A stretch of 34,999 nt of DNA from Cytophagia bacterium (GTDB lineage Bacteria; Bacteroidota; Bacteroidia; Cytophagales; Cyclobacteriaceae), in contig JABXIP010000349.1 in the NCBI GenBank assembly GCA_013373005.1, positions 1 through 34,999 of the forward strand, given 5' to 3'. Shown piece by piece: positions 7,347 to 13,758 of the stretch. The position numbers and the translations under genes were made by a program. The notes beneath the pieces were generated by a model. That model searched no databases, was not told the origin of the DNA, and saw only the letters and a list, made by a program, of their open reading frames with translations. Each line of letters begins with the position of its first letter. Positions within the stretch are counted from its first letter, which is position 1.

Positions 7347-7423
7347 TAAGAGCTGGTATTGTACTGAGTATTTAGACTCTAGACGCCAGATTTCAGACAT
7401 CATATATGGACTTGCTTAACGTC

Positions 7424-7636: not shown

Positions 7637-8251
7637 ATGAAAAGCAAACTGTTTACCCTGTTGATAGCCTTTGGTTTCTGTGGAAGCCTAATGGCTCAAA
7701 CTCCCCTCACTAAGGAAGAAAAAGACTTTGCCATAAAGTACCTGAATGAAGCTACCAAAGAATTGGAACAAACCGTAAAAGGCTTAAGTGAAGCCCAACT
7801 CAAGTATAGACCTGACGCGAACAGCTGGTCGGTTGAAGACTGCCTGAAGCACCTTACCATTTCAGAAGCCAATATCTGGGCTGGATTTGTTGAAGCTGCA
7901 CTTCAGCAAGAGCCAGATCCATCTAAAAGATCTGAGGTTAAAGCCAGTGATGAAATGATTTTGGGTATGATTGAAAGCCGAGATCAGAAAGTACAAACCT
8001 CAGAATCGTTTCAGCCTGTAAATAAAGAGGGGGATTTCAAAACAGTATTAAAAGAGTTTAAATCACTGAGAGCAGCGCATCTAAAGTGGTTAAAGAAAAC
8101 CGATGAGGATTTGAGAAACCGCTATGCACAAACTCCTGTGGGCACAATAGATGCTTATCAGGGAGTGCTGTTCATTTCGGGCCATGTGAAAAGACATACG
8201 GCACAAATGAAAGAAGTAATGGCTAGCGAAGGATTCCCATCGGCTCAATAG
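7637..8251 (+). CDS. DinB-like superfamily protein with signal peptide
   Basis: N-terminal signal MKSKLFTLLIAFGFCGSLMAQ; four-helix DinB pattern with NSWSVEDCLKHLTISE and GHVKRHTAQMKEV. Confidence 0.8.
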   Translation: MKSKLFTLLIAFGFCGSLMAQTPLTKEEKDFAIKYLNEATKELEQTVKGLSEAQLKYRPDANSWSVEDCLKHLTISEANIWAGFVEAALQQEPDPSKRSEVKASDEMILGMIESRDQKVQTSESFQPVNKEGDFKTVLKEFKSLRAAHLKWLKKTDEDLRNRYAQTPVGTIDAYQGVLFISGHVKRHTAQMKEVMASEGFPSAQ

Positions 8252-8272: not shown

Positions 8273-8298
8273 AAAAGCCCTCTTAGGAGGGCTTTTTT
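8273..8298. terminator. Bidirectional Rho-independent terminator
   Basis: AAAAGCCCTCttagGAGGGCTTTTTT between convergent genes. Confidence 0.85.
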
Positions 8299-8310: not shown

Positions 8311-8394
8311 ATTTGAAACACTGATTAGGTAGATTATTGGATTTCACTGATTTAATCTACGAATTCATTACTCCTTGAAATCAGTGATCCACAC
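8311..8394. repeat. MITE-like sequence with ends resembling the GxxExxY cassette inverted repeats
   Basis: Left end ATTTGAAACACTGATTA (8311-8327) matches GTCTGAATCACTGATTA at 14/17. The AATCAGTGATCCACAC part of the right end (8379-8394) matches AATCAGTGATTCAGAC of 13016-13032 at 14/16. Internal perfect inverted repeat GTAGATTA/TAATCTAC (8329-8336/8353-8360). Confidence 0.5.
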
Positions 8395-8397
8395 AAC

Positions 8398-9426
8398 TTA
8401 TGCTAGTGCCTTTCTACAGAACTCAACGCATTTCTGAACTTCTTGAACAGGAGTAGATCCATCTGGTACTCTGTACTCCAACTCAATAGTTGCAGGGAAT
8501 TTGTACTTGTTCTTTTTCATCATTTGAAGCAGCTGAGGAATCGGTGTATCTCCACTTCCCCACACTAAATTACCTTTACCATTGGCTGGTGTTTGACGGT
8601 CTTTAGTATGCATGCTCAAAATGCGTTTATGATTCTTTTCAATCAATTGAATCAGGTCTGTATTGCCAGCAGCAATGTAATGGCCCGCATCCAGGTTCAT
8701 ACCATTCCTTTTACTTTGAGCTAGTGCCGTATCCCAGAAAGTAAAAGTCTCCTGCTCATGGCCATGATATCCAACAGACATTCCGTTCTTCTCTCCAAGC
8801 TTACCTAGTCTAAGTGTATGAGCGTCATTAGAAGGATGTTCCAAAGTAACATGAGAGGCACCCAAGGCCTTAGCCGCCTTCATACCGTAGGTTATATCTG
8901 CATCGGTGGCTTCCATACCAAACACACTTGGTTTAAAGGCATAGATAGAAACACCGGCATCTTTATACATTTTTCTAACCTGCTCAAACTTCTTCATATC
9001 AACACCTGACCTCCATTGACTTACCTCCTTAGCATAAGACTCGCTTTGAGCTCTGAAGTCTGCCATTTTCTTCTTTTCATCGTCAGTCATGACTTCGTTG
9101 TTTCTTTCCTTGCGCATTAGAGGAAAAAACTCACGAAAATCAACCGGATTCTTAGGCATTCCGGCAAATGTCTCTGCAGGGTCTCCCATAAGCTCAATGG
9201 CCGAAATACCACATTCCTTTACATACCCTAGAGTTGCCTCAGCACTCTGATCTGGCATAGAACGAAATGAATATGTGATACAGCCAACTTGCACTCCATT
9301 TATAAGCGAATTGGCTTTGTTATAAGAACTAACAATGGCTGGAGCTCCCTTAAGCCATGCCGGTGCAGCTACAAGTCCGGCAGCTCCCAAAGCCGATTTG
9401 ATAAGAAATTCTCTTCTGTTTTCCAT
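8398..9426 (-). CDS. Sugar phosphate isomerase/epimerase-like TIM-barrel protein with Tat-type signal
   Basis: Starts MENRREFLIKSALGAAGLVAAPAWLKG (twin Arg). Xylose-isomerase-like barrel motifs (GCITYSFRSMPDQSAEATLGYVKECGISAIEL, NLDAGHYIAAGN, SMHTKDRQ). The supplied ORF extends to 9540, but the internal Met at 9426 is the likelier start. Confidence 0.8.
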   Translation of the reverse strand: MENRREFLIKSALGAAGLVAAPAWLKGAPAIVSSYNKANSLINGVQVGCITYSFRSMPDQSAEATLGYVKECGISAIELMGDPAETFAGMPKNPVDFREFFPLMRKERNNEVMTDDEKKKMADFRAQSESYAKEVSQWRSGVDMKKFEQVRKMYKDAGVSIYAFKPSVFGMEATDADITYGMKAAKALGASHVTLEHPSNDAHTLRLGKLGEKNGMSVGYHGHEQETFTFWDTALAQSKRNGMNLDAGHYIAAGNTDLIQLIEKNHKRILSMHTKDRQTPANGKGNLVWGSGDTPIPQLLQMMKKNKYKFPATIELEYRVPDGSTPVQEVQKCVEFCRKALA

Positions 9427-12542: not shown

Positions 12543-12596
12543 ATGCTCAACTTCCTACGAAAGCTTAGAAGAAACTGTCCGAATCACGGATTATAA
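12543..12596 (+). pseudogene. Truncated 5' leader of a DUF6090-like paralog
   Basis: ATGCTCAACTTCCTACGAAAGCTTAGAAGAAAC encodes MLNFLRKLRRN, then runs into the inverted repeat and stops (CPNHGL*). Confidence 0.75.
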
Positions 12597-13032
12597 AGAT
12601 GATATGACACACACAGATTTAAAACATAGTGAGATAACAGAAAAGATTATTGGAGCCTCCTTCGAAGTTCATTCATTCTTAGGAAATGGGTTTCAGGAGG
12701 TAATCTATCAAAGAGCATTAGCTTATGAAATGAGTCAAAGAGACTTGAATTTTCAAAGGGAAATAGAACAAGATATTTATTACAAAGAATTGACTGAACC
12801 TATTGGCACCCGAAGAGCAGATTTCGTTGTCCAGGATAAGGTATTAGTTGAACTCAAAGCAATCAAAGAATTGGAGGATGTTCATATGGCACAAGCCCTT
12901 AATTATTTGAAGGCATTCCGTTTGGAAGTAGGACTACTCATCAACTTTGGCTCAAAAAGCTTAACTTTTAAGAGGCTAGTACTCACAAACAATCCGAGAA
13001 ATCCATAAATCAATCTAATCAGTGATTCAGAC
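12577..13032. mobile_element. Putative small mobile unit: one GxxExxY gene between terminal inverted repeats
   Basis: GTCCGAATCACGGATTA (12577-12593) and TAATCAGTGATTCAGAC (13016-13032; reverse complement GTCTGAATCACTGATTA) match 15/17 and flank 12604-13008. The unit follows a truncated paralog. Confidence 0.5.
12604..13008 (+). CDS. GxxExxY protein (PD-(D/E)XK nuclease-like)
   Basis: GNGFQEVIYQRAL (GxxExxYxxAL), RRADFVVQDKVLVELKAIKEL (D...ELK). Confidence 0.85.
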   Translation: MTHTDLKHSEITEKIIGASFEVHSFLGNGFQEVIYQRALAYEMSQRDLNFQREIEQDIYYKELTEPIGTRRADFVVQDKVLVELKAIKELEDVHMAQALNYLKAFRLEVGLLINFGSKSLTFKRLVLTNNPRNP

Positions 13033-13035
13033 CAC

Positions 13036-13758
13036 ATGCTCAACTTCCTCCGCAACCTTAGACGCAACCAAATGAACAGCAAGTATTTAAAATATGCCAT
13101 AGGCGAGATTGTATTGGTTGTTTTGGGTATTTTGATCGCCTTGAGTATCAATACCTGGAATGAGAACAGAAAGGAAAATAACCTATCCAAGGTCTATCTT
13201 GATAGAATTGAGCAAGACCTACATCAACTCATCAATAGAAGCAACGCACTGAGCAAGCAAAACAAAAGTATTCTTGAGGCTATTACCACCACTCAAACAT
13301 ATTTAGAAAGAGGAACTCCTCTTTCAGATGAGGAACTTAAGACTGTAGAATACGCTATGTTATGGTTTCCCAGAACCACATATCAGCTTCCGCATATGCT
13401 TACCTATGAGGAGATGAAAGAAAGCGGAAACATCAATCTCATTTACCGGCAAGAACTAAGAACTGAACTAGCAGAATTCTATAGCTACCTGGCGCAGGTA
13501 GAGTCAATCTATATTAAACTAGGCCAACAAGTAGAAGATCAGTTTGTGATTTATAATAGATATATCCGGTCTACAACCGACCCTACCACCCTGGATATCA
13601 CCTTTGAATATGACTTCGATAAGATGTCTAGAGACGATGAATTCATCAATACATTTTCGCGCCTAGCCATCCATTGGAGAGGCTTTGTCTTCTTTATGGA
13701 GGGAATAAACCAAAGGGGAGATTACATTATGATTAATTACTTCACAACCGAAGAATGA
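13036..13758 (+). CDS. DUF6090-like membrane protein, array copy 5
   Basis: MLNFLRNLRRNQMNSKYLKYAIGEIVLVVLGILIALSINTWNE anchor; begins 3 bp after the right inverted repeat. Confidence 0.8.
   Translation: MLNFLRNLRRNQMNSKYLKYAIGEIVLVVLGILIALSINTWNENRKENNLSKVYLDRIEQDLHQLINRSNALSKQNKSILEAITTTQTYLERGTPLSDEELKTVEYAMLWFPRTTYQLPHMLTYEEMKESGNINLIYRQELRTELAEFYSYLAQVESIYIKLGQQVEDQFVIYNRYIRSTTDPTTLDITFEYDFDKMSRDDEFINTFSRLAIHWRGFVFFMEGINQRGDYIMINYFTTEE

Follow-up and report, generated by a model that had tools for sequence, protein, structure and literature searches.

Within the window, by which we mean the whole stretch of 34,999 nucleotides that was analysed, an 84-bp gene-less element lies between two convergent genes, a DinB-like gene that ends at 8251 and is followed by a terminator-like hairpin (8273-8296, MFE z -3.7), and a xylose-isomerase-like gene with its stop codon at 8398. 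A GxxExxY gene, itself enclosed in inverted ends, lies 4.18 kb away. The initial annotation had placed the element between the terminator and the isomerase gene and had matched its ends to those of the GxxExxY unit, and all the letters and coordinates that it gave proved right to the base: positions 8311-8327 are identical to GTCTGAATCACTGATTA at 14 of 17 positions and 8379-8394 to AATCAGTGATTCAGAC at 14 of 16, GTAGATTA and TAATCTAC form a perfect 8-bp pair, and an extra copy of CACTGATT stands at 8345-8352. The features discussed here are the following:

8311..8394, no strand: gene-less palindromic unit, 84 bp (inverted four-word arms, pair score, profile matches)
8311..8352, + strand: left arm of the 84-bp element, GAAACACTGATT AGGTAGATT ATTGGATT TCACTGATT (end-profile match)
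8353..8394, - strand: right arm of the 84-bp element, degenerate, with the minus-strand reading GTGTGGATCACTGATT... (profile match at 8388-8372)
12577..13032, + strand: GxxExxY cassette with inverted ends, 456 bp (both ends matched by an independent profile)
12577..12619, + strand: left end of the cassette, which includes the start codon and, at 12612-12619, its last word CACAGATT (sequence, profile)
12604..13008, + strand: GxxExxY protein, predicted PD-(D/E)XK nuclease (PDDEXK_3), 134 aa (family profiles, invariant columns, model)
12992..13032, - strand: right end of the cassette, GTCTGAATCACTGATTAGATTGATTTATGGATT (profile E=1.1e-9)

The GxxExxY protein scored far above the cut-offs of its families (135 bits against 35 for TIGR04256, and 127.5 bits against 22 for PF13366) and possesses the catalytic set H23/E32/D73/E83/K85/Q97/Y101 at the invariant columns. 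Its AlphaFold model, computed from the window protein and the translations of our loci only, reached a pLDDT of 92.7, and the best PDB match was a weak one to the Cas4 protein SSO0001 (E=1.3e-3). The protein is predicted to be a small Cas4/RecB-like PD-(D/E)XK nuclease that has kept its catalytic residues. It shares its fold and catalytic residue set with Cas4/RecB-type nucleases (4ic1, SSO0001), yet it is only 134 aa long, contains no cysteines, and therefore no Fe-S cluster, and has no CRISPR context in the window. The cassette has no transposase, the nuclease being its only gene. A search of IMG/VR for relatives of the protein returned one. As for the surroundings of the cassette, it is preceded by 34 nt that correspond to the beginning of a DUF6090 ORF (12543-12576), and a full-length DUF6090 ORF that begins similarly (13036-13069) follows it. 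A DUF6090 start was also found just downstream of a lone right end on host contig C13 (L191, C13:560-700) and of a closely similar GxxExxY cassette in genome G003 (L339, G003:C5), which has ATC where the window copy has its ATG.

The ends of the element and of the cassette

Each arm of a GxxExxY unit of this subfamily consists of about four near-identical words that end in GATT and follow one another in steps of 8-10 bp, with the consensus (TT)GTCTGAATCACGGATT nnnACGGATT nnAGGATT nCACGGATT, and conservation falls sharply within a few bases outside GTC / GTCTGAATC. The left arm of the 84-bp element reads as a full four-word end, CACTGATT-(AGGTA)GATT-(ATT)GGATT-(T)CACTGATT, and so the internal CACTGATT is its fourth word and the second word lies within GTAGATTA. 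Decay in this arm is confined to the outermost TC(T)GAATC, all four words being kept, and the outer variant GAAACAC is also found in congeners (G006). With its outer TC(T)GAATC decayed and its right arm weak, we take this copy to be old and probably no longer active. Its predicted RNA folding is slightly better than that of shuffled sequences (z -1.5 and -1.8), and a search of Rfam gave no match.

The words themselves vary among GxxExxY subfamilies (CACAGATT, CGCAGAG, CGCAAAG, CACGAATT, ATTAAGG and others). Similarity of the arms and similarity of the proteins are weakly correlated (rho 0.17, Mantel p 0.02), a correlation that could also come from simple common descent. At three loci the outermost end GTCTGAATCACGGATTATAAAT was seen tandemly repeated two or three times (L227, upstream of the gene; L249; L287), as if the ends themselves can be amplified.

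The likeness of the element to the cassette was assessed against chance in several ways. When scored against the two ends of the GxxExxY unit, the arms of the element gave 21 and 15, a sum of 36. The highest-scoring pair downstream of the unit reached 19, and six windows shuffled by dinucleotide gave 21-22. We also used an end profile built from 44 ends, which were picked by their GTCTGAATCAC core from the loci of 80 relatives of the GxxExxY protein in genome_contigs, none of the ends being from the host; this fixed seed inflates the apparent conservation of the core and cannot create matches in the window. The four top places of this profile on the window were the two ends of 12577-13032 and the two arms of 8311-8394, facing inward. 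The right end of the cassette (13032-12992) ranked first and the left arm of the element (8315-8351) second, with E=1e-5, followed by the left end of the cassette (12577-12606, E=4e-4) and by the right arm of the element (8388-8372, E=0.58), with background matches from 1.3 upward. On the whole 4-Mb host genome, a draft of 543 contigs, a 34-end model found the left arm (8314-8351) with E=6.7e-5, and just two places had a better score, the cassette's right end and the lone right end on contig C13. The left arm is securely a cassette-type end, and the right arm is supported by its rank, place and orientation, not by its score.

Simpler motifs proved less telling. The bare 11-mer AATCAGTGATT was rejected as proof, with 166 copies against 43 in the control, but with most of the sampled exact copies inside ORFs; since most copies elsewhere in the genome lie within ORFs, this 11-mer is unspecific and the arrangement is what counts. 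A match at locus L017 (TTCTGAATTTGAACCACTG) was likewise judged to be chance, as it lies inside an ORF. The pattern CACAGATTN{12,42}AATCTGTG was found 20 times against 0 in 119 genomes, all 20 in GxxExxY-positive genomes, and was given little weight because several of its matches resemble one unrelated conserved hairpin. Hairpins of the type CACAGATTGGGGAATAGCTAAAAAATCCTTAAATCTGTG are conserved in several genera (G079, G083, G093, G148 and G130; L204-L213), apparently outside GxxExxY cassettes.

Gene-less units in the host, the genus and other phyla

Following the proposal of the initial annotation, we searched the host and its genus for ends paired in inverted orientation and listed the copies with and without a gene. 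Further pairs were neither lacking nor at chance frequency, the two outcomes named beforehand as fatal to the claim; congeners and many other phyla carry gene-less units with the same ends beside their GxxExxY genes. In the host draft genome the 84-bp element was the only gene-less pair found, next to the unpaired right end on C13. Across the 19 genomes of the genus, with arms counted at E<=1 and pairs assigned by eye, we counted at least 13 pairs that lack a gene and 5 units that carry one, in six genomes. In G006, five gene-less units of ~105 bp stand in tandem after the cassette behind mnmE, and have a spacer in common that is unrelated to the gene. G015 and G004 have different arrays at the same place, and behind mnmE G004 has a gene-less remnant where G006 has the gene-bearing unit. 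Two further observations concern this place: in G004 (C45:111-122 kb; L346/L334/L335) a stretch of some 10 kb that carries an HsdM-like gene of type I restriction-modification splits the array of gene-less units, and partial duplicates of the mnmE 3' end are found in several congeners, as at an island integration site.

More widely, the neighbourhoods of 79 GxxExxY genes from some ten phyla (Bacteroidota, Cyanobacteria, Ignavibacteria, Neomarinimicrobiota, Poribacteria, Spirochaetes, Calditrichota, Proteobacteria and others) yielded 254 arms. They contained 57 gene-less units, which are 80-153 bp long, a range that includes the size of the 84-bp element. No gene-less unit was found in shuffled sequence or in 26 unrelated loci (91 kb). 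TIGR04256 itself occurred in 78 of the 119 genomes that represent the taxonomic family, in up to 15 copies, and at 63 of 89 GxxExxY loci of the family the upstream flank matched the reverse-complemented downstream flank (score >=16), as compared to 14% of mispaired loci.

Several comparisons bear on movement. At L067 and L075 the cassettes are 97% identical and the flanks 88%, with the change falling at the terminal words TGTCCACAGATT...AATCTGTGGAC, and L075 has extra gene-less units relative to L067. At L071 and L073 the flanks are 97-99% identical and the whole array between them is different. The arrays of close relatives thus differ in the number and content of their units, and the ends of the units are the borders of change. 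Proteins of the same GxxExxY subfamily that share 75-85% of their amino acids occur in Bacteroidota, Cyanobacteria, Ignavibacteria and Proteobacteria, and the subfamily therefore moves between phyla. Target-site duplications, sought at 31 cassettes with boundaries uncertain by 1-3 bp, were not enriched over re-paired ends. A clean empty site for the 84-bp element was not found, as DinB and the isomerase are never adjacent in any congener examined (DinB is present, and the isomerase in two of them), which places the element at or close to a break in synteny.

A second kind of cassette came into view alongside the GxxExxY units. Four-helix-bundle genes (TIGR02436, S23/IVP-like) number 9 in the host (contigs C487, C401, C270, C375, C130 and C451) and occur in 52 of 60 genomes of the family. 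They are intergenic (L154-L189) and lie inside inverted arms whose words are private and vary even from locus to locus of a single genome (CGTATTGCG, ATAGTCGATAG, AAACTTTAAAC, ATTCATCATTCAT); 30 of 35 such loci had an arm score >=14, against 15% of mispaired ones. The window also contains, at 7370-7408, a TAGAC-type word string (TTTAGACTCTAGACGCCAGATTTCAGACATC) like the arms of these cassettes, with no such gene adjoining it.

Nature and proposed spread of the GxxExxY units

The 84-bp element is very probably a gene-less, REPIN-like (MITE-like) member of the GxxExxY cassette family, made of two inward-facing arms and a short spacer. By analogy, GxxExxY units would work most like REPIN/RAYT, but with a different protein. 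As in REPIN/RAYT (PMC3116915, PMC2817692), gene-less inverted arm pairs with a short spacer are extragenic and form arrays, the gene of a nucleic-acid enzyme (there TnpA-REP) is bracketed by the same arms, and the arm sequence varies with the enzyme lineage; the element is itself an inverted extragenic doublet of palindromic ends. Unlike in REPIN/RAYT, the bracketed gene is not a cognate RAYT, an HUH/Y1 transposase, but GxxExxY, a predicted PD-(D/E)XK enzyme of Cas4/RecB type, and the arms are of about four A+T-rich words in low copy number, the consensus GTCTGAATCACGGATT having neither a GTAG or CGTC head nor a G+C-rich palindrome. The element shares with MITEs its short, gene-less form and terminal inverted repeats common to a gene-bearing relative, whereas this relative has no transposase, as the MITEs of DNA transposons would require, and no target-site duplication was detected; dispersed copies, typical of MITEs, amount in the host to the one pair and the one single end, with arrays in congeners. 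The element fits a class that we define here, the GxxExxY-associated palindromic unit, whose inverted-pair profile it matches with E=1e-5 in its left arm and 0.58 in its right. A further likeness is to the 23S rRNA intervening sequences with an S23/four-helix-bundle ORF (PMC4990558), in which a small ORF also lies inside inverted terminal arms with a patchy, horizontally spread distribution; GxxExxY units differ in lying outside rRNA, in their nuclease ORF and in their word-string arms.

Other explanations of the 84-bp element were weighed against this reading. It could be the decayed remains of a GxxExxY cassette whose gene was removed by an internal deletion, and which was never mobile as a gene-less unit; this is consistent with its degenerate sequence and with the G004 remnant that replaces the gene-bearing unit of G006 behind mnmE; we nevertheless consider this rather unlikely, given that the 57 gene-less units elsewhere have a standard size and both arms full, and that the common spacer of the G006 units bears no relation to the gene. 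The arms might instead matter as RNA, the stem being cut from transcripts by RNase III and the insert tolerated between genes, as in 23S rRNA intervening sequences, which have terminal stems and may carry a four-helix-bundle ORF (PMC4990558); the four-helix-bundle genes of these genomes have private-word inverted arms of the same kind. This seems improbable for an element that stands after a terminator, between convergent genes, and folds weakly, and a stem would not need word strings, while the arrays and the exchange between species would go unexplained.

Slightly less probable still is a true REPIN, which a RAYT/Y1 transposase of the host would move and in which the GxxExxY gene would simply be carried along. 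The anatomy resembles that of REPINs (PMC3116915, PMC2817692) in its inverted doublets, in their tandem clusters and in the gene that they enclose, and Y1 transposases are encoded by the host (5 genes) and by 14 of the 19 genomes in the genus, but G003 has a full-ended cassette and no Y1 transposase, several Y1-positive congeners have no significant arms, and in every phylum examined the A+T-rich, four-worded arms, which have no GTAG/CGTC head, lie beside GxxExxY. That the element is an ordinary terminator or regulatory hairpin of the isomerase gene, resembling cassette ends by chance, is very improbable: although it is palindromic and lies at the 3' end of that gene, an end profile drawn from other organisms picks out its left arm in the whole genome (E=6.7e-5), its minus strand has no T-run, and it is absent at the isomerase 3' ends of G007 and G018.

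We favour, at a probability of roughly 80%, the explanation that the element is a gene-less, REPIN-like unit of the GxxExxY family. The initial annotation had called it a non-autonomous derivative of the GxxExxY cassette; the shared ends bear this out, mobility we infer, no transposition having been seen, and the word derivative is only partly apt, as the G004 unit behind mnmE resembles a gene deletion and most gene-less units have a standard palindromic form and occur alongside the gene. The arms would be the sites at which the GxxExxY nuclease, or a host recombinase following its cut, acts. A break at an arm would be repaired from another unit with like words, and such arm-to-arm repair would copy, swap, amplify or delete units, with gene-less ones riding along in the exchange and spreading in trans. 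That the element did spread in trans at some time is a reasonable expectation, somewhat better than even; that the GxxExxY nuclease itself is the agent acting on the arms is a more tentative suggestion.

More broadly, and just as tentatively, GxxExxY cassettes and their gene-less units may constitute a transposase-free class of mobile DNA, with a stand-alone Cas4-like nuclease, word-string ends that co-drift with it in each lineage and a break-and-copy spread across phyla, of which the four-helix-bundle (S23-like) cassettes might form a second branch. Our literature search found no description of GxxExxY (PF13366/TIGR04256) units or of these repeats; subscription journals and preprints lay outside it, and priority is uncertain. 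GxxExxY genes are small and widespread in Bacteroidota and other phyla, and their occurrence in defined, exchangeable units with gene-less companions suggests a plausible life for them as selfish or mobile DNA. The arms offer a concrete DNA substrate on which the GxxExxY nuclease can be tested and, if the explanation is true, GxxExxY units would be a nuclease-served counterpart to REPIN/RAYT.
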